Origin: an uncultured Monoglobus sp.
GTDB taxonomy: Bacteria; Bacillota; Clostridia; Monoglobales; Monoglobaceae
DNA length: 64,000 bases
Direction: 5' to 3'
NCBI GenBank assembly: GCA_947628795.1
Contig: CANRBF010000024.1
Coordinates: forward strand, 53,048-117,047
Below are positions 2,478 to 15,303 of this stretch, in pieces (the stretch's first letter is position 1; each line of letters begins with the position of its first letter). A program made the translations under genes and the position numbers. The notes under the pieces are model-generated. The model made no database searches. It was given only the letters and a program-made list of their open reading frames with translations, and was not told the origin of the DNA.

Positions 2478-5447
2478 TTAAACTGCATATTCAATAAGTA
2501 TTTTAATCAACTGTTGTTTATCATTTTCTTCTAAATCTGTATTTTTTAAAACTTGTTTTATAGATTGCCTTATCTGCACTTTTGAACTTTCATTTTTAAA
2601 TATTGTTTCATATGTTTGAGGATAGAGATTCATTAACCATGAAACATCAAATTTCTTATAATCAAATTCATCTGGATTAAAATAAAAATCAAATTTATCC
2701 GCTATTCCATAAAATTGATCAAAATCTTTATGTTTTAAATAACCTAATGCACACCAATAACCCACATTGATTAAGTCTTCATACGGATCATGGTAAGGAA
2801 AAGAATATATACCCTCATTATTATTGGCATTATTAATCACAGAGTTTAGATGATTTATAAGTTTATTAATTATATTTTGTTTAAAATTAACACCATTTGT
2901 TAACAAATCGGCAAATACATCAAAACTAAATGATTCTTCCAAACTTTTAGACATATGGTTCATCAACTTTGTTTTTGTTTTTTTATATATAATATTACTA
3001 CACTTAAATAGAGAACTCAATGAGAATTTAAGATTATTTTCAATTATATAGGTTATTCTATCCGAAATATACTTTGAAATATATTTTGTATTGTTAAAAC
3101 ATAGAATATTTGCTAAATCCCAATATTCAATACTAGAATTTGTGCAAAGCATTTCAAACTTTTCTCCATTTTTAATACATTTTATATTTTCATCAATATA
3201 TTTCAAAAAAGTCGTATGTACATATTTTGAAATTCTTTTTACTTCAACCTTACCTTTACTTATTTGACTATAAATAAATGTTATTTTATCATTAATATAA
3301 ATTTCTCTAAATTCATATTTTAATAAAACACCACAAATAAACTCTACAACTTTGGGAGAAATTGTTATATATTTTAATAGTTTTAGACAATTTTTCAATT
3401 TTAGTTGGTAAGATATTTTTTCTAATGGATTTTCTACTTTTGACAATACAGCATCATAGTATTTAAATAAATTATATATTGACATATTAACCATTTCAAT
3501 ATTCTCTAAAGGCAAATCTTCTATGTTGTTTTTAATCATAAGATTTGTGATTTCCTTTTCTTTAAAAAACTCTATAAAACAATATATATCAATTTCATCA
3601 AAGTAAATTGGTTTATTGCCAGATCCCATAGAAAATTCGGCACTTATTGTTTTCTGTTTATTTACTGCATACTTGGCAATTATTAATTCCATAGTTTTCT
3701 TTATAGTGATTTTAAATTCAATAAACTCATCAATAAATAGGCCATTGCCTAGAATAAAATGTAAATTATTATTTATTCTACTAATAGCCCTATCTGTTGA
3801 AGTAATTCCCGCTTCAATTATATTTTTATTAATAGTTCCACTCAGCTTGTCATTTTCAATAAACGTGTCATAAACATTTTTATATAAAAAATTTACTGTA
3901 TATAGATTTGAAAATGTATCATATTGTTCTTTAAATTCAATTGGTAAATTTTCGAAAATATTTGCATGTACAATTTGGTCATGCTCTAATTTTTGCTGTT
4001 TATCAAACTTGAATGTGTTGTAATAAAACAAAGAACGATTTACACTTTCCATAGCAAACGCAAGACTACGCATATTTATTTGTGACAAATAACATAAAAC
4101 ATAATTCTTATCTTTAAATGCCTCGGTAGCAACCTCAGTAAAAAGATTTAGAGATTCTTCATACCTTTTTAATTTTGCCAAATAAAAAGCCTTAGTGTAC
4201 CTACGGTATATATTCTTAGGATTACTGTTTATTATTTTTTCCATTTTTAGATAATTAAATGTAATGCAATTTAAGTCAGCAAAATCACTATCATCAAATG
4301 CCAATAAAATTTTATTATCATTATTTATTATGGCTCTAATTCTTGCTTTTAAAAATACACAATCTATAACCCTAAATTTTTCTTGGATAGGCTTTTCAGT
4401 GGTGATAAATTCTTTGTTTTTTAACCCAATATAATATGTCATTATTTCATAACTATTTTTGCGTAATTTAACCACTCCATCTTCGTTTATAAATATGTAA
4501 TTGCCCAATATCTTTTTAATATCTATGATGCGCAATGTTTTAAATGAGTTTAATGGTTTCACCAATTCATACAATAAATCAAAAGCAGCATATTTATCTT
4601 TGCTTGCAAAAGAAACTTTGCCATATGAAATGATTTTGTCCAATACGTTTTTATATCTTTCTTCATACCCTGTTTCCAAATAATTATCACACTTTGAACA
4701 AAGTCTAAAATCAACAACTTCTAGTCCACGAGATTGTTGATATAATAAATCATTATTATCAAGTTCTGCATCATCAGTATATATAAAAATAGGTTTATTA
4801 AAGCTATCTTTTAATAAAGATTTAGTCCAATTTAATATTAATTTTACATTGTAATCGTTAAGACCATATCCAATAAAAACTACAGTATTTGTTGAAAAAA
4901 TTGATTTAAGCATTGTTTCAATCAATTTGAAATTTTCGCTATAATTCAGATAATCTTCCTCTTTTAAAACTATATTTTTATGTTCTAAATCTCCATGTAA
5001 CTTTAAAATATATCTATCACCATTAATATTTGAGACTTCTGAATCTTGAGCAACAGACTTAAAAGACAAACAAAATTGAATGACTGCTTTCTCTAATAAA
5101 TCATCAAAATTTGTTGTGATAAAACTTTTAGGATTTAAATGACACATTAGTTTATGTATCAAATTAGGCTTTAAGGATGCACAATCAAAACAATTATTTA
5201 TAAATTCATAGTATTTTTTTTCATCTTGATTTATTGAATAATAGTATTTTTGAGGAATAGATAATAAATCGTCATTAGAATAGTAATCTTTTTTCGGTAT
5301 TTTTAGTTCATCACAAAAGGAATCAACTAACTCTGACCATTTTGGTGCATGTGATAATTTGGATATACCTGCACCCACAAAGAATGATAAAGTATTATTT
5401 TTAGATGCGTTCATAATTCTTCTAAGCGTATTATCTATATTATTCAT
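2478..5447 (-). CDS. dsr2: DSR2-like defence-associated sirtuin (SIR2 NADase, 989 aa)
   Basis: Large anti-phage effector. Residues about 15-210 form a SIR2 domain with the nucleotide-binding GAGIS at 25-29, ITTNFDDL around Asn113, KLHGD with His151 and FIGYGLNDYN at 191-200. Asn113 and His151 occupy the catalytic positions of SIR2 NADases. The rest (about 260-989) is helical and repeat-like, with no second enzyme motif. Length (about 1000 aa), the block KEEDYLNY, and the C-terminal DEFDYKKFDVSWLMN agree with the DSR2 family as I remember it. In that family the C-terminal part senses a phage tail-tube protein and the SIR2 domain depletes NAD+; that activity is inferred here. GGAGG lies 9 nt before ATG 5447. 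The gene is the last of the leftward set ATPase-FRG-DSR2. Confidence 0.9.
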   Translation of the reverse strand: MNNIDNTLRRIMNASKNNTLSFFVGAGISKLSHAPKWSELVDSFCDELKIPKKDYYSNDDLLSIPQKYYYSINQDEKKYYEFINNCFDCASLKPNLIHKLMCHLNPKSFITTNFDDLLEKAVIQFCLSFKSVAQDSEVSNINGDRYILKLHGDLEHKNIVLKEEDYLNYSENFKLIETMLKSIFSTNTVVFIGYGLNDYNVKLILNWTKSLLKDSFNKPIFIYTDDAELDNNDLLYQQSRGLEVVDFRLCSKCDNYLETGYEERYKNVLDKIISYGKVSFASKDKYAAFDLLYELVKPLNSFKTLRIIDIKKILGNYIFINEDGVVKLRKNSYEIMTYYIGLKNKEFITTEKPIQEKFRVIDCVFLKARIRAIINNDNKILLAFDDSDFADLNCITFNYLKMEKIINSNPKNIYRRYTKAFYLAKLKRYEESLNLFTEVATEAFKDKNYVLCYLSQINMRSLAFAMESVNRSLFYYNTFKFDKQQKLEHDQIVHANIFENLPIEFKEQYDTFSNLYTVNFLYKNVYDTFIENDKLSGTINKNIIEAGITSTDRAISRINNNLHFILGNGLFIDEFIEFKITIKKTMELIIAKYAVNKQKTISAEFSMGSGNKPIYFDEIDIYCFIEFFKEKEITNLMIKNNIEDLPLENIEMVNMSIYNLFKYYDAVLSKVENPLEKISYQLKLKNCLKLLKYITISPKVVEFICGVLLKYEFREIYINDKITFIYSQISKGKVEVKRISKYVHTTFLKYIDENIKCIKNGEKFEMLCTNSSIEYWDLANILCFNNTKYISKYISDRITYIIENNLKFSLSSLFKCSNIIYKKTKTKLMNHMSKSLEESFSFDVFADLLTNGVNFKQNIINKLINHLNSVINNANNNEGIYSFPYHDPYEDLINVGYWCALGYLKHKDFDQFYGIADKFDFYFNPDEFDYKKFDVSWLMNLYPQTYETIFKNESSKVQIRQSIKQVLKNTDLEENDKQQLIKILIEYAV

Positions 5448-5483
5448 AAAATATAACCTCCAAATATGAGAACACTTTACATA

Positions 5484-5511
5484 ATTATATTATAATTCTA
5501 TTTTATATCAA
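5484..5511 (-). promoter_or_regulatory. Probable sigmaA promoter of the DSR2-like gene
   Basis: On the minus strand TTGATA (5506-5511) and TATAAT (5484-5489) are separated by 16 bp, about 40 bp before the start codon. This suggests that the gene can be transcribed on its own as well as with its upstream neighbours. Confidence 0.5.
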
Positions 5512-5644
5512 TAAATTCACATAAGTTTATATTATTAAAAATCATAAGCTTTATCATAAGACACGGCTTGTCAAGGATGAATTTATTTTTTTGTATGAGA
5601 AAAAGCGATTAATCGTTCACGAATCACTTTTGGTATTTTTTCTT

Positions 5645-6391
5645 TTAGCTTAATTTGTATTTTATAAATTCTTTTAACAGCGCCGTTTCAGCACATCCCT
5701 GAAGCCCCGGAAATAGCCGCATGTGATTTATTCCCATCATATCCAAATCATTTAAAGCAATATTTTGCTCTGCATGTGGAATTATTATTTGCGTTAAAGC
5801 TCCATCTATATCGCATCTTGAAGAACATGCTTGTACAAAACCTTCTATTCCTATGTGAGGGCTCTGATTAAATGTAAATATACCTTCTTGATATTTTTGA
5901 TGTTCATTCTCATTTAATCTGGTAGTAACGATTTTCACGCCATAATCTTCTTTCCATATTTCATTTTCAGTATCAATCGCCCAAATAGAGATATAGTCAC
6001 TATCAGCATTTCGACTTTGAATAAAAGCAAAGAACGCTGCAACATATACACTATAAGACCAATCTAATAACCTTGTTGGTAATCCATAATGTTGTCCTAA
6101 TGATAGAATTTGAATATCACTATATTCCGAAAATTTATCACTACCCAAAAAATCTCTGCATCTATTTCTAAATTCCTGCACCAATGATTTTTCAATCGCC
6201 TTTCTATTTCCGAATTCTAAATTGCCAAACATTCTATCAAAGCTAGTTAATAATGACCATTCATGGCTACCTTGTCCTCTAAAAAGATATTGCTTTTCGC
6301 CAAAAAATAGTTGTCCACACAAATCATTTGTTATTTTACTTTTAAACTCATTCCACGAATCATACGTCAATGTACTATACCCTTTTGTCAT
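5645..6391 (-). CDS. FRG-domain protein (248 aa)
   Basis: FRG-domain protein of unknown biochemical activity. Visible motifs are the name-giving FRGQG (residues 37-41) followed by HEWSLLTSFDRM, and the second conserved block QHYGLPTRLLDWS (100-112), with a hydrophobic AAFFAF helix just after. The length is usual for a single FRG domain with a short C-terminal extension. There is no signal peptide or membrane segment. The start ATG 6391 has AAGGA close by. The family occurs often in defence islands and prophages; the conserved Arg, His and Asp residues suggest an enzyme, but no reaction is assigned. It lies 215 bp downstream of the ATPase gene and 197 bp upstream of the SIR2 gene, on the same strand. 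Confidence 0.88.
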   Translation of the reverse strand: MTKGYSTLTYDSWNEFKSKITNDLCGQLFFGEKQYLFRGQGSHEWSLLTSFDRMFGNLEFGNRKAIEKSLVQEFRNRCRDFLGSDKFSEYSDIQILSLGQHYGLPTRLLDWSYSVYVAAFFAFIQSRNADSDYISIWAIDTENEIWKEDYGVKIVTTRLNENEHQKYQEGIFTFNQSPHIGIEGFVQACSSRCDIDGALTQIIIPHAEQNIALNDLDMMGINHMRLFPGLQGCAETALLKEFIKYKLS

Positions 6392-6606
6392 ATTTCCTTA
6401 TGCAATATAATCCTTCCCCCAAATGAGGATAAAATACTGCTCTCCTTTCTCAAAAATGTATTTGTATTTAAAAATGATTAGGTTTTAGGTGAAATTAATA
6501 TACTGATTTATAAGTATCATTTATACTCAAATATTTTTACTTTCTATATTGAACTCGTATTACTCAAAATCTTTTGTGGTAGGGGATTATCAATTAGCTT
6601 ATATAC

Positions 6607-8178
6607 TCATTTTACCCCACCTATAACAGGTTTTTTATCCCACATTCTTCCAGCCATTCCTAATGCGTCAATTATGCAGGACCGTAGTACATATTGATAC
6701 TTATTTTTTGGTAGCAAAAACTCCAAATATTCACTATCGGCAAAGAATATCTCTTCTTGCCCATTTGCTCCATCTTCTATATAGCCTAGTCCTCCGTTTT
6801 GCCACATAATGTCAAACATTTTATTGTCTCTGCCTAATAAAGCGTCTGACTCCTTTTCTAATTGTTGCAACTCTTGAAATGAAAATTTATCGTTTTGTAA
6901 TTTCAACAACAGTTCTTTCATCTTTTCAACAATTGTAGTATTATATTCTTTAATACTTGTGTATACTTCTGAAAATCCTTTTTGAGCTGCTCCTTTTGGC
7001 ATTTCATTATTTATAATTTGATTTGCACATATCTGCAAAAGTTCATTTCCGAATCCTTTTGCCGCCGTTGAAACCTTTTTTCGTATGGTTTTTTCTACAT
7101 CAAAGTCAGAAGAAGATGTTTCTTTAATATTGCGAATTTCTGACAAGGAATTACCAATTATTATAATATCCCTAGGCAAAAGTCGTGTATGTCTTAAAAT
7201 ATATTGTTCTATTGGTTCCTCAATACCTCTCTGAATGTTTGTTATGTTAGATATTCCTAACCAACTTTCAATATTTTTCTGCCCATCATTATTGAGAAAA
7301 TAACATTTCTTCAGTACAGATATCTTGGCTTCAAAAAAATATTTTATTGTTGAATAATTCCAGTCTAATAATTTAATATGTTCTTCATTAATATATCTAG
7401 TTTGATGCTCGCTCCTATATATAGATGCCAATACATTATCCCTAATGCTTATAACAACGTGTAATTTATTACCGTATGTATCGTTTCTAAACAACCGCAT
7501 GACTCTATAAAATAATCCTTTTTGACATCTTAGCCAATACATTGGTGCATGGGCATACTCCTCATCAACCGAATCAACAAAAAAGTATATTGGAGACAAA
7601 TCTTTTAATGCTTTATTTAACAGTATATCCAGCTCATCCCATTCAGGTTTTTCGATATATTTATTAAACAGATTATTAGTATTAAATTCTGTTAAAATAT
7701 GTCGTGCCTCTGCATAAATTCCCATTGCTACAGTATACTTTGGAAATAATTTTTTTTCATAGTTTTTTATTTGCTCTTTTAATTCATCCGGAACCCCTTC
7801 ATTCCACTCATCATTACAAAGTATATGAGAAACTAATGCGCGCATAATTGCTACTTTCCATAGATACATCCATTTTTCAGTAACTTGATTTTCGGGAAAA
7901 TTTTGCCCAAACTTTATAATTAAATCAGTTGATGGTAACTCTTGTTCCATTTCACAAATATAAACTGACTTATTTAATTTCAAGTTCGCTCTCATTCTTC
8001 TCAAGTATACTGTTTTTCCAGAACCTTTTGCACCAACAATGACTCTAGTTTTCATATCATCCGGAGAAGCGACTCCAGACGAAAAATATCTCTCATCAAA
8101 AGCGACAAATTGCGCCATCATATCGTCTATATCTGTTCTAGAACCATCAGGATTGCCGAATGCGTTTTTTTTATACAT
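6607..8178 (-). CDS. P-loop ATPase of a defence island (523 aa)
   Basis: An ATPase with Walker A GAKGSGKT (residues 49-56) and Walker B IYFFVDSVDEEY (197-208), followed by CQKGLFYRVMRLF and a probable sensor strand VVISIRDNVLASIYRSEHQ. The N-terminus FGNPDGSRTD precedes the P-loop domain directly; after about residue 330 comes a helical region with TRLLPRDIIIIGNSL, reminiscent of the lid and winged-helix part of STAND/AAA ATPases. No nuclease, TIR, membrane or peptidase motif is visible, so an effector would have to be a partner, probably the FRG protein next door. Start ATG 8178 lacks a strong ribosome site. A good promoter lies about 90 bp upstream. Confidence 0.82.
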   Translation of the reverse strand: MYKKNAFGNPDGSRTDIDDMMAQFVAFDERYFSSGVASPDDMKTRVIVGAKGSGKTVYLRRMRANLKLNKSVYICEMEQELPSTDLIIKFGQNFPENQVTEKWMYLWKVAIMRALVSHILCNDEWNEGVPDELKEQIKNYEKKLFPKYTVAMGIYAEARHILTEFNTNNLFNKYIEKPEWDELDILLNKALKDLSPIYFFVDSVDEEYAHAPMYWLRCQKGLFYRVMRLFRNDTYGNKLHVVISIRDNVLASIYRSEHQTRYINEEHIKLLDWNYSTIKYFFEAKISVLKKCYFLNNDGQKNIESWLGISNITNIQRGIEEPIEQYILRHTRLLPRDIIIIGNSLSEIRNIKETSSSDFDVEKTIRKKVSTAAKGFGNELLQICANQIINNEMPKGAAQKGFSEVYTSIKEYNTTIVEKMKELLLKLQNDKFSFQELQQLEKESDALLGRDNKMFDIMWQNGGLGYIEDGANGQEEIFFADSEYLEFLLPKNKYQYVLRSCIIDALGMAGRMWDKKPVIGGVK

Positions 8179-8267: not shown

Positions 8268-8296
8268 ATAATATCATATTTTGTCTTAAATGTCAA
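8268..8296 (-). promoter_or_regulatory. sigmaA promoter for the ATPase-FRG-DSR2 set
   Basis: Minus-strand TTGACA (8291-8296) and TATTAT (8268-8273) with a 17-bp spacer. It leaves a leader of about 85 nt before ATG 8178 and is the strongest promoter-like signal in front of the three-gene set. Confidence 0.6.
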
Positions 8297-8316
8297 GTGC
8301 GATTTGTTTAATATTT

Positions 8317-8496
8317 TTATGCCACATAAAATAATCCACTTAAATTTTCAAAATATCTAATAGTATCATATGTACGCATTTTGGGGATAAATATCTCTTT
8401 TAAAAGCATATAAATCTTATGTTTTGCTATTTCAAAATCTTGAAAACCAGCGTATGCAATATAATTAACATTCGAAAATGAGTTTTTAAATGTCCA
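8317..8496 (-). pseudogene. Unidentified protein tail (gene remnant)
   Basis: An open minus-strand frame of 60 codons ends at TAA 8317-8319 and contains NYIAYAGFQDFEIAKHKIYM and later KMRTYDTIRYFENLSGLFYV. It has no start codon with a ribosome site and follows directly, in the same frame, the stop of the relaxase-like remnant. Composition looks like protein coding, but I do not recognise the family. Confidence 0.45.
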
Positions 8497-8873
8497 CTAT
8501 TGCTCCAATTCATGCTGCTTAAGTTTGTTTCTTGATTGCGCGTCGGCTTGCTGACGCTTTCGCTCTAAATTCTTACGAACAGATTTTTCCGTTGTGGTAT
8601 TGTTTCACAAAGAACTTTGTCAATATCACTCTCTGCTGATTGCATTAACTCATATTTATACTTGCGACCATATCTTTCTTGAAGCCGTTTCCATAGTGAT
8701 TTCTCGTTGCTGTTACGAATATTACGGCATTCCTCACGAACAGCGGTAATATCTTCAGGTGCAATACTATTGGAAATTTCCTTGTGCTTGGCTATATCCG
8801 TTTCATTTTGCTCGGCAAGTTGAGCGTTGAGCGCTTCAATATTTTTAAGTAAAATATTATTATTTTTATTCTA
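8497..8873 (-). pseudogene. MobA/MobL-type relaxase, degraded C-terminal tail
   Basis: Reading the minus strand gives IEALNAQLAEQNETDIAKH, ISNSIAPEDITAVREECR, SLWKRLQERYGRKYKYELM and, after a frameshift near 8605, KNLERKRQQADAQSRNKLK followed by stop TAG 8497-8499. The highly charged helical tail resembles the end of MobA/MobL mobilisation proteins of Gram-positive plasmids and conjugative elements. The relaxase domain itself is absent, so the assignment is moderate. A stop (TAG near 8876) closes the frame upstream. Confidence 0.5.
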
Positions 8874-8899
8874 CTGTTTCACTTTCGGTATATCGTCCT

Positions 8900-9580
8900 C
8901 AGAGTTACAGTGCATATCACCAAGAAGTATACGCTTACAAGAGACGCCGTATACATAGTTATAGGTATACGTATGGACGGGTTAAAATAGGTACTTGGTA
9001 TATGGGCAGGCGAGAATGAGAGCGCAAAGTTTTGGTTATCGGTAATGAACGGACTGAAGAACCGAGGAGTTGAGGATATCTTAATTGTCTGCGTAGATGG
9101 CTTAACAGGCTTTCTGGCAGCAATAAAATCGGTATATCCGAAAACAGAGATACAGCAAATGCATTATCCATCAAATCAGGAATACCACAAAATATGTATC
9201 CTACAAGGATATTAAGGAGCTAATGGCGTATCTGAAGTGAGTATATGCGATGGTGGACAGGCCTACAGCGCTTGATGGTTTTGATGAAAATGGAGTGTGA
9301 AATATCCGAAAATAGCTATATTTTGGCGAAAGAATTGGGCAAATTTATCGACATATTTCAAATATCCGCAAGCGGTGAGAACGCTGATTTACACAACGAA
9401 TACCAAGGGTTTACGCGGCAAGCCGCTCCAATGAACGTCCTGCGAGTGTCCTTGACAAGCCCGGCCGTTTATGCTACAGTATATTTAAGGCAGAAATTGA
9501 GCAAGTCAATTTCTGCCTCGGTAAAACAGATTATATTACTGTTTTGGAGTTTACACAAAATTTGGGATAGTGCCGTGGAT
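8900..9580 (+). mobile_element. IS256-family transposase remnant (DDE region and C-terminus), multiply disrupted
   Basis: Plus-strand pieces in shifting frames give AVYIVIGIRMDG, VLGIWAGENESAKFWLSVM, VEDILIVCVDGLTGFLAAI, then YVSYKDIKELMAYLK, KYPKIA, WRKNWANLSTYFKYPQAVR and LIYTTNTKG. In this order they are the catalytic core and C-terminus of IS256/Mutator-type transposases. There are at least four frame breaks or stops. The N-terminal third is not present here; a minus-strand N-terminal fragment survives about 7 kb away, but the two need not come from one copy. Confidence 0.82.
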
Positions 9581-9630
9581 TGATATGTAAAAAGGACTTA
9601 TTTTACACATCTTTCTTCGTAGTGTCTATG
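9549..9630. repeat. Two IS256-type terminal ends side by side
   Basis: TTTACACAAAATTTGGGATA (about 9550-9569) and TTTTACACATCTTTCTTCGT (about 9601-9620) both have the TTTACACA core typical of IS256-family ends. The second closely resembles the end at 1982-2010, including the trailing GTGTCTATG. It lies against the 3' end of the STAND gene. Confidence 0.5.
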
Positions 9631-9636
9631 CTTGAC

Positions 9637-12600
9637 TCAAATATCTATTATTTTATTTGTCAGTTTTATTGCTTCCTTAACTTGATATTTATACATAAGA
9701 TCCCAAATATCGAGACAACGATTAGCCAGTTGCTTATTATCATCAATATCTGATCCTGTTAGTTCATCATATAACGCAATGATCAGTTTAGCGATTTCTC
9801 TTGAAATATATCTAACGAAATCACCATCTCTTCTATTAGAGCCAATCAGCTTCTCACTTATATGCAGTATAATATTACTGCAAGAAATTAAAGAAACATT
9901 GTGATCATTTAAGTATTGTATGAATGAGTAGATAACTCGCCTACTTACATTTGAAACAAGCATTTTTTCAAGAAATTGCTGATCGCGCCTTAAATCAATT
10001 CTCTCATCTTCAAATAAGGATATCCAAGGCCCATCTATATCATACTTGTTATCAAAAAAATTACATAAAAAGTCTTTAGCTTTTTTATTATACTTGGGTA
10101 TTCCTACATAGTATGCAGCTGCGGTAATTAATGCTTCGGTTTGCAAAGAATTGATTTTGTCAAATTCGTCAATTACATTTGAAAAATCCCCTCTTTCCAT
10201 ATATAATTTGAAAATAGAATATGCACCGACTTCGACAAGTGTTTTATCGTTTGAAAAATAGCATTTCAATAATATATCACTTATGACATTTATATAGTTA
10301 GAAATCATTTCAATAATCATATCTTTACCATAGCGAATACCTGCAACACGGTAATCATTTTTCAGTAATGAAACAAATTGCTTTTTCGACCAGTTTATGT
10401 TAAAGTCGTGAGTTACGACTAATATTAATGCGCTCATATACCTAACAGACGGATGTTTGTCATGAATGAGCGTTTCTATTGATTCTCGAAAAAAATCAAA
10501 TAATGTGCTATTCTTTAATAATACATTAGCTATTGTATGTGCTGCTGCACCTCGTACACAGTTAATAGCATCGGTTTCCAAATCCAAAACTGTTTTAGAT
10601 GTGATAGCATTTGATGCAGCTGCTGTATCAGGTTGCGGATCAATATGATTCTGAGCAAGATTTTTAAGCGTCTCCAGAGTAACCATGCTCCAAGACGCAT
10701 TTTTCTTTTTGAGAATTATCTCACAAAACTCTAATGCTCTTGACGAATTGTTATTGTCGCAGGGATATTTTTTAAATACCTTTTCTATTAAATCTGTATC
10801 TATATCATCCAAAGTATTACTATATGATATACCTTTATAAAGAGCATCTATATACAACTCATCAACGTCAAAATCCAGTTCTAACATAAATTTAATCATT
10901 TTGATTGTATTTTTTGAAACGGTTTCATAAAAGACATTAGAAAAACTTCTAATATTATTTTCTATAATATTAGTGCCGATTTCACGCCGTCTGTTGTTAT
11001 TCTTAAGCTTTGTGCTTTTAAAAATGCTTTTCCAATTATTGAATGACAGACATTTATTTGTTATTGAGGTGATTGTGCTGCCAAACTGCGGTGATGACAA
11101 AAAATATATTGTGTTATTGTCTTTAATTTTTCTGTTCAAGACACGCTCTAAATCTTTGACTTTATGACTTTTCCTATTTGGGGGTAAAATCGGCAGCAAC
11201 TCTTTTTGCAAGTCTCCCCAGAATCTCCAGAAAACATGTATGCCGTTTTCTTTATAATAGTCAATTCTATTTTTATATATACGTCGCATACGTTCAACAT
11301 TACTGTATATATTTATTTTGTATTCAAATGTATTATAGACACTGTCTGAGCAATATACTGAATACTTTCCTATGACACGTTTAGCCATTTCTAATCTGTT
11401 TTCGTTGCCGCTTGTTCCTTCTAACAAAGTCATATCAAAATCATCGTACAAATATGTTATAATGAAATCTGCGTATTTTTCGCTTGCCGGGAAATACATA
11501 AAAGCATCTAATATAATTTCGTTATATAATATATTTCCTTGTGAAAAAAATGGTCTATATGTATTAATAAATTCGTCCGGATTATCTTTAACAAAGTTTT
11601 TATTAGCACTTTTAAGCACCTTTATGCAAGCGCGTTCTGGGCTATCAGTATGCATATACCTATTTTCCCAATTGCTGTATTTTATATCAGTATTGCTTTT
11701 GGGAAGAAGCGGTTTAATAATTTTTATAACGTCGGAATAGTTTTTTATATTACATTCAACATAAAAATCTATAGAACTCTTTAGCGGGTTCCAATTTTTT
11801 GACGTATATTGTTTATTCTCTACCCACAATGCTAACATACGGACTGCCCTAAGCTCGCAAATATTTATCATTTCGCTTAAATCAAAAAAGTAATCAAATA
11901 AATTAGGGTGCAGTCTATAGAAATTTATTCTCAATTCGAAGAATTCATCACTGTCATAGCAAATACTTTGATAAAAACAATGATTCCAATAGACAGCTTC
12001 ATTCTCGTCATCGGGATTGGCAAAAATACTATTACTTATCCAAGTAATATCTTCATTTGTATATTTGCCGGAAATGCTTGCCATCAACTCAATTGCATTA
12101 AGCCTTTTTTCTCCATTCATCCACTCGTCAAATATGCTATTTTCTCTCAATATATGAATATAGTATGGATTTCCCGATACAACATTATCACATATATGGT
12201 TTTCCCATTCTTCTTTTGCAATGTATTTTAATATAAAATCTTTAACTGAACTGGAATTTTTATTAACCGATTTTAGGAGTTCAAGAAAAATATATTTTAT
12301 ATTGAATCTTATGTTGTCAGCCTCTAATATTTGGATGCCTGCATTTACAAAATCACTATAATTATCATCCATCAAGCTTTGCATAAACATCTGCACTTGA
12401 TAACGCTTGCCCGGCGTTTGACTTTCAATATCACCTATAATATTATCAATGCTGTCTCCATTGATGTATTTTAACATCATATTATTGGCCATAAAATGAT
12501 CTAATATAGATTGATGAGCAAATGACAGTTTGCTACCATTCAAAATAGTGAAACCGTTAGAGTTCAAAAAATTTATACACTTTGTATCAATATCAATAAT

Positions 12601-14193
12601 CTGGATGGGAACATATGTTCTGTTTTTATTTTGACAATAATTTACTATTTTGTTTTTAATCTTGTTTAAAGAACCTGATTCTATGGTTAAATCAGATGCT
12701 TTTTCATTTAATTGTTTCCACCATTCATTAATAAGCTCACGCGTTGTTGTAATGGAATCATATTTTCTATCAAAATCTAACTTTTCGAAAATATAAAGAT
12801 TGCTTGGTATTGTTATTATTTCACGCAGCTTTTTATTTAAGCGATTAAATATATTTTTTCCTATAATACTCTGTATTTTTTCTTCGCTCAAGTTATTGAT
12901 GCAAATTCTTTTCCAATCTATTTTATGAACATCTTTATCATCTGTCTTAAATAGACTTGCTATATTTCGGTCGTTTTCGTAATCATAACTGCGACAAACC
13001 ATGACAATAGAAATCTTTTCTTTTCGATCAATATTTAAACATTTTATTTCGTCAATAATTTGAAAACATACATCCAATGCATTTGTTGAATGAGCTTGGG
13101 TCCATCTAAGTGCATCTAATTGGTCTAAAATAAGAACTGCGTGTTGGTTTTTAGAGATGGAATGCAAGCAACTGGATATGGATGCAGGTAAATTCATCGA
13201 ATTTGCCCATGATTCAGTAGTAGAAGTAGGTATGCGTTTATCCAGCTTTATTGCCAGATAAGGCATAGAATTTTCTTCACAGTAATCTATTATATTTTCG
13301 GCACAACCACTTTTGCCTATACCCGCTTTGCCATGAATTATAACGGATTTGCCTGCTAATATTGCCCGCCAACATTCAGAAGATTCATCTCGTATAATAA
13401 GTCCGTTTTCGAAATAAGAATAGTTTCTTCTAAATTCTTTATTTAGTCTGTTTATTGTTGGCATTATTCGTTCATCTCTGTCTAGGTTTCGATACATTAT
13501 CCCCTTTTGAGTTATGAAATTATTAAGTTCTGATATACTCAGTTCGCGTCCTAATATACTGCCGTCTAGTAAATAGTTGATAAATTCAGCATATATTGTT
13601 TCCGGCTCACCCAAAAACAATAATCTTATATTATTTAAAATCATATTTTTAAGTTCAGAATTCGGAACCTGTCGATAAGATATTCTGGATAAATAATTAA
13701 TTATTTTAATTAAATCACTATCTTTTGCATGTGGGTTTAAGCCAAAATCATTGCAAATATTTTGAAATAGCTTTTTAGTTTTTGAACCGGAAGCATTGAT
13801 TTGATATTCTAAGAAATCTTTTGGGTTTATACTTGTGGTAGCTCTATAGATTAAATCTTCTAAAAGCGTAAATGCTAATGGAGACACTAAAGAAACCCTA
13901 TTATTCTCATGACGTTCAAGCTGCATTTTCCATGTATTTATGACCCCTCTTGCTTTTATTGAATTATAATCCCATTTCTCATTACTTGCGTTGCGGGCTT
14001 TGCATTGTTGACCTTCTCGTGTGCCATCTTTATTCCCAATCCACAAATCAACTCCGCGTTCATCAGCGCCAATAGCTTCTATAGTTACATATTCAATTTT
14101 TTCAAATAAAACATCAAGTAAATTTAAAACAATCCATTTATATTCGAAACTATTACCTAATTTATCCGCTCGTCCACCTGTTTCAAATGCCAT
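9637..14193 (-). CDS. Avs-like defence protein: nuclease - STAND NTPase - helical repeats (1518 aa)
   Basis: Three-part architecture. Residues about 1-120 carry a PD-(D/E)XK-like nuclease: GVDLWI with Asp49, then REGQQCK with Glu60, Gln62 and Lys65. Residues about 260-560 form a STAND P-loop NTPase with Walker A GKAGIGKS (288-295), Walker B VLILDQLDAL (353-362) and the sensor VMVCRSYDYEND (397-408). The remaining 900 residues are helical; around AAAHTIANVL and KHPSVRYMSALIL they look like HEAT repeats, a typical ligand sensor. This matches the design of Avs/AVAST immune receptors, where binding of a conserved phage protein drives oligomerisation and nuclease activity. The target is unknown. 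ATG 14193 has GAGGAGG upstream. It follows fic by 69 bp on the same strand. Confidence 0.85.
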   Translation of the reverse strand: MAFETGGRADKLGNSFEYKWIVLNLLDVLFEKIEYVTIEAIGADERGVDLWIGNKDGTREGQQCKARNASNEKWDYNSIKARGVINTWKMQLERHENNRVSLVSPLAFTLLEDLIYRATTSINPKDFLEYQINASGSKTKKLFQNICNDFGLNPHAKDSDLIKIINYLSRISYRQVPNSELKNMILNNIRLLFLGEPETIYAEFINYLLDGSILGRELSISELNNFITQKGIMYRNLDRDERIMPTINRLNKEFRRNYSYFENGLIIRDESSECWRAILAGKSVIIHGKAGIGKSGCAENIIDYCEENSMPYLAIKLDKRIPTSTTESWANSMNLPASISSCLHSISKNQHAVLILDQLDALRWTQAHSTNALDVCFQIIDEIKCLNIDRKEKISIVMVCRSYDYENDRNIASLFKTDDKDVHKIDWKRICINNLSEEKIQSIIGKNIFNRLNKKLREIITIPSNLYIFEKLDFDRKYDSITTTRELINEWWKQLNEKASDLTIESGSLNKIKNKIVNYCQNKNRTYVPIQIIDIDTKCINFLNSNGFTILNGSKLSFAHQSILDHFMANNMMLKYINGDSIDNIIGDIESQTPGKRYQVQMFMQSLMDDNYSDFVNAGIQILEADNIRFNIKYIFLELLKSVNKNSSSVKDFILKYIAKEEWENHICDNVVSGNPYYIHILRENSIFDEWMNGEKRLNAIELMASISGKYTNEDITWISNSIFANPDDENEAVYWNHCFYQSICYDSDEFFELRINFYRLHPNLFDYFFDLSEMINICELRAVRMLALWVENKQYTSKNWNPLKSSIDFYVECNIKNYSDVIKIIKPLLPKSNTDIKYSNWENRYMHTDSPERACIKVLKSANKNFVKDNPDEFINTYRPFFSQGNILYNEIILDAFMYFPASEKYADFIITYLYDDFDMTLLEGTSGNENRLEMAKRVIGKYSVYCSDSVYNTFEYKINIYSNVERMRRIYKNRIDYYKENGIHVFWRFWGDLQKELLPILPPNRKSHKVKDLERVLNRKIKDNNTIYFLSSPQFGSTITSITNKCLSFNNWKSIFKSTKLKNNNRRREIGTNIIENNIRSFSNVFYETVSKNTIKMIKFMLELDFDVDELYIDALYKGISYSNTLDDIDTDLIEKVFKKYPCDNNNSSRALEFCEIILKKKNASWSMVTLETLKNLAQNHIDPQPDTAAASNAITSKTVLDLETDAINCVRGAAAHTIANVLLKNSTLFDFFRESIETLIHDKHPSVRYMSALILVVTHDFNINWSKKQFVSLLKNDYRVAGIRYGKDMIIEMISNYINVISDILLKCYFSNDKTLVEVGAYSIFKLYMERGDFSNVIDEFDKINSLQTEALITAAAYYVGIPKYNKKAKDFLCNFFDNKYDIDGPWISLFEDERIDLRRDQQFLEKMLVSNVSRRVIYSFIQYLNDHNVSLISCSNIILHISEKLIGSNRRDGDFVRYISREIAKLIIALYDELTGSDIDDNKQLANRCLDIWDLMYKYQVKEAIKLTNKIIDI

Positions 14194-14262
14194 AGTTTAT
14201 CCTCCTCTGTGTCAGAAATATTACTTAAATAAAATACATTGGAATATCCGTTCATCTATGAA

Positions 14263-15240
14263 TTACTTTTTTCTGTATTTTTGATTTCGGCTGTTCGGCT
14301 TATTCGGGATTGTCATTTCTATAAGACCGGCTTCAAGTGCCGGGCGCAGATAATTTTTTCTGAATGTGGGACGGTGGGAGAGGTTAAGGCGTTCCATCAA
14401 CTGAACTGCGGACAGTTCTTCGCTGCCCAAGCAGTCGAGCAGTGCTTTAACTTGGTCGCTTACTTGGTCGCTATCTTGGTCGGTATTGTTAAGATCCAGT
14501 AAAGCATCACGGATGACTTTCATCATCATTTCGACAAAGTCGGCGCAATCGGCGCTTTTGTCCGATGCCGCCAAAGCGTCGTAGTAATCCTTTTGGCGCT
14601 CCTTAATAAGCTCCTCGATCGGGAGCCATTCAAATATCTTGTTCCAGCGGCTGAGCAGCAGAGTGTGCCACATTCTGCCCATTCGGCCGTTGCCGTCGGA
14701 AAACGGATGTATAAACTCAAATTCATAATGGAATATACAGCTTTTTATCAGTATGTGTATCTCGGACTCCGCGTACCACCTAAAAAGGTCAGAAACAAGC
14801 TGCGGCACAAGGTCTGCCGGAGGCGCGGCGTGAACAAGCTTTTCGCCGTCAAAAATTCCTACTCCGCCTGTCCTGAAACAGCCGCTTTCGTTTACAAGCT
14901 CGTTCATCATTATGCCGTGCGCCTTGAGCAGATCCTCGATTTTGAAAGGGTCAAATTCGCGTATTACTTCATAAGCGTCACAGGCGTTTTGAACCTCGCG
15001 AATCTCTCGAGGCTCACCAAGAACACGCTTGCCATTTATCACGGCGGTGACCTGATCAAGCGACAGCATGTTGTGCTCTATAGCCAATGACGAGTGGATC
15101 GTTTTTATTCTATTGTCGCGGCGCAGTCTCGGGCTTATATTATTCTTGTGCGTAACGCCAATTTGACCGACCAGCTCGCTGATCTCGGCAAGCAGATTTA
15201 TTATATTTTCATTAATGGTGAACGGAGGTTTGTATTCCAT
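14263..15240 (-). CDS. fic: Fic-family AMP transferase with C-terminal winged helix (325 aa)
   Basis: Fic/DOC protein predicted to transfer AMP (or a related nucleotide moiety) to a target protein. The catalytic loop HPFSDGNGRMGR (178-189) is complete, including the essential His178. The N-terminal inhibitory-helix position reads SSLAIEHN (50-57); the usual Gly/Asn after Glu55 is His. The C-terminal 60 residues form a winged-helix domain (AVQLMERLNLSHRPTFRKN), preceded by an Asp/Gln-rich linker. ATG 15240 is chosen because AAGGAGCG precedes it; the open frame extends 21 codons further without a ribosome site. In this subgroup Fic proteins often act alone as regulated enzymes rather than as classical toxin-antitoxin pairs. 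Its neighbour downstream is the STAND gene. Confidence 0.93.
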   Translation of the reverse strand: MEYKPPFTINENIINLLAEISELVGQIGVTHKNNISPRLRRDNRIKTIHSSLAIEHNMLSLDQVTAVINGKRVLGEPREIREVQNACDAYEVIREFDPFKIEDLLKAHGIMMNELVNESGCFRTGGVGIFDGEKLVHAAPPADLVPQLVSDLFRWYAESEIHILIKSCIFHYEFEFIHPFSDGNGRMGRMWHTLLLSRWNKIFEWLPIEELIKERQKDYYDALAASDKSADCADFVEMMMKVIRDALLDLNNTDQDSDQVSDQVKALLDCLGSEELSAVQLMERLNLSHRPTFRKNYLRPALEAGLIEMTIPNKPNSRNQKYRKK

Positions 15241-15274
15241 TTCTCGCTCCTTAAATATTGATTTGCATGATAAT

Positions 15275-15303
15275 ATTATATCATAATCACAAAAATAAAT
15301 CAA
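15275..15303 (-). promoter_or_regulatory. sigmaA promoter of fic (and possibly the STAND gene)
   Basis: Minus-strand TTGATT (15298-15303), 17-bp spacer, TATAAT (15275-15280), about 35 bp before ATG 15240. Confidence 0.6.

Follow-up and report, generated by a model that had tools for sequence, protein, structure and literature searches.

Among the described systems closest to the locus examined here is DSR2 (defence-associated sirtuin 2) of Bacillus subtilis (structures 8k98 and 8wyb), whose NAD+-site residues are Asn133 and His171 (PMC11087589). FRG-domain proteins (PF08867) have been placed in the ADP-ribosyltransferase (ART) superfamily and might be NADases (PMC9503650). The Sll1717 family of P-loop ATPases is represented by the curated model NF047389, the name of which carries no function, and modular ATPase-effector immune systems (Avs/STAND, RADAR with RdrA, CED-4/NB-ARC) are among the nearest known systems to an ATPase paired with an FRG protein. 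Here we analyse a stretch of 64,000 nucleotides from an uncultured Monoglobus sp. (contig CANRBF010000024.1, positions 53,048 to 117,047; referred to as the window). A preliminary description made from the sequence alone had reported a leftward set of three genes at positions 2478-8178, encoding a P-loop ATPase, an FRG protein and a DSR2-like SIR2 protein, and all three open reading frames are indeed intact on the minus strand at these coordinates:

2478..5447, minus strand: DSR2-type SIR2 NADase of 989 aa, with a full-length phmmer match to the DSR2 structures, a SIR2_2 domain (PF13289) and catalytic Asn113 and His151
5645..6391, minus strand: FRG-domain protein of 248 aa, a predicted ADP-ribosyltransferase-like, NAD+-using effector with a conserved Arg38 in FRGQ
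6607..8178, minus strand: P-loop ATPase of 523 aa, Sll1717 family, a predicted AAA+/STAND-like sensor and switch

The real find at this locus is the ATPase-FRG two-gene module, and we consider it probable that the locus consists of two adjoining defence modules, a sensor-effector pair of ATPase and FRG protein next to a DSR2-type NADase that would act alone. In order to follow the ATPase beyond the window we scanned a collection of 84,980 species genomes (genome_contigs) once with a 33-row ATPase alignment, a scan that relies on conserved motifs and misses distant members, and obtained 22 other loci. Twelve of them (L002, L005, L011, L012, L013 and L015-L021) carry an adjacent FRG gene, at 11 in the order ATPase-FRG, where the nearest start codon falls between -11 and +19 nt relative to the stop of the ATPase gene, and at L011 with the FRG gene upstream of the ATPase; the corresponding gap in the window measures 215 nt (6392-6606). 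The hosts of the pair belong to six phyla, namely Bacillota, Actinomycetota, Acidobacteriota, Chloroflexota, Pseudomonadota and Bacteroidota. At six further loci (L006-L010, L022) a protein kinase domain is fused to the ATPase, and at two (L004, L014) a class III cyclase domain, while at the remaining two the contig stops within the ATPase (L003) or holds a broken copy at its end (L023). The kinase fusions all contain HRD, but DFG is found in L022, where the fusion is split between two reading frames that contain masked letters, and DFN instead in the five actinobacterial ones, which leaves kinase activity only putative. Both cyclase fusions, of which L004 is truncated by the contig end, carry FTDVEG and KTAGD stretches. 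Seven of the eight kinase- or cyclase-fused ATPases come from Actinomycetota.

With FRG adjacent at 12 and a kinase or cyclase fused at 8 of the 22 loci, the ATPase has the appearance of a switch that can be reused with different outputs, and ATPase-FRG that of a system of two genes. The window FRG protein is set apart from the FRG family as catalogued in PADLOC, in that it adjoins an Sll1717-family ATPase, as its counterparts do at those 12 loci. The PADLOC entry PDC-S15 is, judging by the S in its name, presumably a single-gene candidate. Likewise, within NF047389 it is our alignment A1 that delimits the FRG-paired, kinase-fused and cyclase-fused group. The wider proposal, that this group constitutes an undescribed immune switch family, with an AAA+/STAND-like ATPase present in at least six phyla whose outputs (a separate FRG ADP-ribosyltransferase, a fused Ser/Thr kinase or a fused class III nucleotidyl cyclase) were repeatedly swapped, is a serious possibility that in our judgement falls a little short of an even call. 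No description of the ATPase-FRG pair was found in the literature searched, where most subscription journals fall outside coverage.

Close to the host the ATPase is rare: in scans of 51 genomes from the order, 391 from the class and 398 from the phylum, the window's own genome was the only one to match. No match was obtained in 72,556 plasmid records, and none was confirmed among 162 pattern-matching IMG/VR stretches. FRG matches occur in three of 50 related genomes, the own genome included, which makes FRG an infrequent background gene. In the protein database, taking the best 120 of 479 ATPase, of 3388 FRG and of 493 DSR2 hits, nine contig sizes are common to the ATPase and FRG matches listed (115 and 120 distinct sizes, respectively), about one of which may be a coincidence, since 0 to 3 coincidences arise when the sizes are offset by 1-10 bases. 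The ATPase and DSR2 matches listed, kinase-fused ones included, share only the contig size 171330, which represents the window's own relatives, and the FRG and DSR2 matches listed have no contig size in common. One protein considered as an ATPase-FRG fusion, P0056, was not counted, as both the last portion of its ATPase and the beginning of its FRG part are missing.

A phylogenetic tree of the ATPase was built from 37 chosen rows, including 8 of the 21 listed kinase-fused hits; L003 and L022 were excluded as partial and the broken copy L023 never entered. On this tree the FRG label requires three changes, and FRG, kinase and cyclase labels together require four (minimum two; shuffled mean 12.8). 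For FRG and for the kinase alike, well supported branches demand two or more changes, hence the kinase output either arose on two occasions or was acquired and later lost; the long branches of L012, L018, L011 and P0114 leave details of the tree unsure. To compare the two genes of the pair we used 22 pairs of distances (the 12 loci, the window and nine pairs inferred from equal-sized contigs), for which ATPase and FRG distances correlate with r 0.83, a value reached in none of 5000 permutations (best 0.40). The correlation shows a shared history of ATPase and FRG as judged from these distances, with host relatedness contributing. Such co-divergence, together with the tight adjacency, would also be expected of a toxin-antitoxin type unit in which FRG is the toxin and the ATPase its inhibitor and not an activating sensor. 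We consider this arrangement unlikely, as the fusion of the ATPase to a kinase or cyclase at 8 of the 22 loci is a better fit to a sensor-effector protein, and as the predicted fold of the ATPase resembles the AAA+/STAND switches Avs5 and RdrA, though ORC and TnsC equally.

The family assignments of the pair rest on matches above the respective thresholds. The ATPase reaches 95.8 bits with NF047389 ("P-loop ATPase, Sll1717 family"; curated cut-off 75) and carries a Walker A motif, GAKGSGKT, at residues 49-56 as well as a Walker B-like stretch, YFFVDSVDEEY; in PADLOC it matches mad8 of the MADS system weakly (2.2e-5). The FRG protein, for which an alternative TTG start seven codons downstream is possible (compare P0121), scores 85.3 bits with PF08867 (domain cut-off 25) and matches PADLOC PDC-S15 with an E-value of 3.6e-64. 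Foldseek returned no match at E ≤0.001 for the model of either protein, and no solved structure is related to either by sequence at E up to 1. The predicted fold of the FRG protein matches ADP-ribosyltransferases weakly. This weak match and the lack of a solved relative by sequence would suit a different role, in which FRG does not use NAD+ but serves as a ligand binder or adaptor and the pair has a function in housekeeping or in the maintenance of a mobile element. However, aligned ranges place the invariant Arg38 at the position of the ART arginine, some loci have defence genes as neighbours, and PADLOC includes FRG as a candidate defence family, so that we regard a non-enzymatic FRG as improbable too. 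In the sensor-effector pair that we favour, the AAA+/STAND-like ATPase would sense infection and activate FRG, which, with its predicted ART-like fold, would then consume NAD+ or ADP-ribosylate a target.

The third gene poses the question of whether the set is a single system, with the ATPase-FRG pair regulating or licensing DSR2 from one operon. The common strand and order of the genes behind a strong promoter-like site speak for such a system, as does the fact that the FRG and sirtuin families are both tied to NAD+ use in defence. Nonetheless, we judge it very unlikely. A DSR2 profile, which also detects generic SIR2 domains in other genomes, gave a SIR2/DSR2 match at none of the 22 ATPase loci, where some contigs are short and the DNA beyond FRG extends from 30 nt (L017) to more than 9 kb. 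Conversely, the ATPase is absent from all six loci of DSR2 relatives that we examined with about 4-10 kb per side. Of the two roles that the preliminary description had offered for the ATPase-FRG pair, an independent system or a regulatory layer, the recurrence of the pair at 12 of the 22 loci favours the former, and neither a layer over DSR2 nor the three-gene set itself finds support at the loci examined. The same description had suggested a search for the pair with and without dsr2 and had reasoned that the genes would be just island neighbours if the SIR2 gene protected alone and the pair was never near SIR2 elsewhere, and this latter half agrees with what the 22 loci show.

The DNA between the genes also suggests that DSR2 is separate from the pair. 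Besides the promoter-like site upstream of the ATPase, which the preliminary description had pointed out and which is present with 11 of 12 consensus matches, two further features, both new to this analysis, lie in the 197-nt gap between FRG and DSR2:

8268..8296, minus strand: promoter-like site for the ATPase-FRG pair, TTGACA-17-TATTAT, 11/12 consensus matches
5601..5631, minus strand: terminator-like hairpin between FRG and DSR2, AAAAGTGATT-(11 nt)-AATCGCTTTT, then TCTC
5484..5511, minus strand: promoter-like site for DSR2, TTGATA-16-TATAAT, 11/12 consensus matches

When the 300 nt preceding the ATPase are shuffled 1000 times, at least one site as good as that at 8268-8296 appears in 4.0% of cases, and 1000 shuffles of the FRG/DSR2 gap match the score of the 5511-5484 site in 1.0%; over 12 kb, promoter-like sites, defined by consensus matches only, are found at chance level (74 against 72.6 expected). 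A GGAGG follows the 5511-5484 site ahead of the DSR2 start, and TTTGGAGG lies just 5' of the DSR2 ATG (5447). The hairpin has a folding energy of -8.5 kcal/mol (z -2.57), which 4 of 200 shuffles equal, contains few G-C pairs and is not picked up by a stock scan. In the ATPase-FRG gap, by comparison, there is no promoter-like site of at least 10 matches and no comparable hairpin. The lengths of the two gaps had likewise gone unmentioned in the preliminary description. Base composition differs between DSR2 (24.3% G+C, 17.7% at third positions) and the pair (FRG 32.8% and 23.3%, ATPase 32.1% and 25.2%). DSR2 is therefore likely transcribed from its own promoter, to judge from these signals, and the reading of all three genes as a single operon was discarded in view of recurrence, the hairpin, the promoter-like site and base composition. 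As to small genes, the two gaps hold only open reading frames of 20-62 aa, the sole one on the gene strand being 21 aa long. This 21-codon frame, starting from TTG (6453-6388), overlaps the FRG start and may be due to chance.

For the SIR2 protein itself, the assignment given in the preliminary description, a DSR2-type protein of 989 aa with Asn113 and His151, is confirmed: residues 2-987 align to residues 24-1003 of 8k98 (phmmer, E 8e-92), across the SIR2, middle and C-terminal domains, and Asn113 and His151 take the positions of Asn133 and His171 of DSR2 and do not vary among the 36 rows of alignment A3. It shares with Bacillus subtilis DSR2 (8k98/8wyb; PMC11087589) a full-length alignment, the catalytic Asn and His and an N-terminal SIR2_2 domain, but is distant from it in sequence and sits behind the ATPase-FRG pair. 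Another DSR2 relative, from a plasmid of Priestia, shows 27.4% identity with 98% coverage. The window's DSR2 is likely a separate single-gene module and a distant member of the known family, and by analogy to the Bacillus subtilis protein it may on its own act as an NADase triggered by a tail-tube protein. Both modules would then counter phage by halting the infected cell.

The six loci of DSR2 relatives come from genomes (L059 from G225, L060 from G155, L061 from G289, L067 from G433) and from viral contigs (L064, L065). In L060 and L061 the profile match lies mostly within the SIR2 part. The relative in L059 adjoins a gene for a conjugative coupling protein, that in L064 lies about 6.3 kb from a distant FRG protein, and in L067 a distant relative is flanked by the hsdS and hsdR genes of a type I restriction-modification system (8990-15236). 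Weak matches to the SIR2 profile are numerous, and 30 loci were taken, most with a flank of about 1.5 kb, L059-L061 alone being read further out; within such flanks, L029-L054, mostly weak SIR2-only matches, contain neither ATPase nor FRG. On the Priestia plasmid no annotated FRG gene lies within 8 kb of the DSR2 relative, in an annotation that is incomplete and was read without a profile scan, and a gene with an FtsK/SpoIIIE domain is found about 7.7 kb away on the opposite strand.

The surroundings of the locus contain further genes of interest. Upstream of the ATPase, 8300-9600 holds no credible open reading frame and by eye resembles decayed transposase or mobilisation sequence. It is followed at 9637-14193 by a 1518-aa NTPase protein with a P-loop/NACHT-like middle part below the Pfam cut-offs, a weak match to PADLOC PDC-M54A (2.6e-11) and a C-terminal piece to which Pfam gives no match; we take its N-terminus to be reminiscent of Cap4-type nucleases. 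A Fic-domain protein with a Fic-like C-terminal domain adjoins these defence genes at 14263-15303. Left of DSR2, 808-2318 contains fragments that resemble Pox_D5 and, weakly, DUF5906 (phage primase type), as well as fragments of a Mutator-family transposase and of an integrase core, with transposase remnants at 1529-2318; by their domain matches they mark decayed mobile elements. Further left, outside the window, a tyrosine integrase and a serine resolvase (L063 10995-12853) are possible mobility genes of the island; island-border repeats were not found beyond 14-nt matches, which are not meaningful.

At the other ATPase loci, neighbours were chosen by eye for Pfam and PADLOC, a selection that has no background rate. 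Six hand-picked neighbours gave three clear PADLOC matches, a type II restriction enzyme (L002), bSEFIR (L003) and an ATPase-Toprim/AriA/PtuA-like protein (L021), and one weak match (L015), whereas a further gene in L002 and one in L019 matched nothing. Directly upstream of the pair in L002, 4760-9144 encodes two C5 methylases, a BpuJI-like restriction enzyme and a Schlafen/AlbA_2 protein, and another AlbA_2 protein adjoins the pair in L019. By their predicted domains the neighbours of the ATPase fit with defence islands, and alone they are no proof of function.

Taken apart in this way, an odd three-gene set becomes two separately testable units, a caution for annotation in that co-directional genes of an island are not necessarily one system. 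FRG has been proposed as an ART-like defence effector, with no partner given in the sources consulted, and with a conserved ATPase as partner its activation would become open to direct test. The fusions to kinase and cyclase domains in turn point to the ATPase as the shared sensor, which would give comparative leverage on the signal that it senses.
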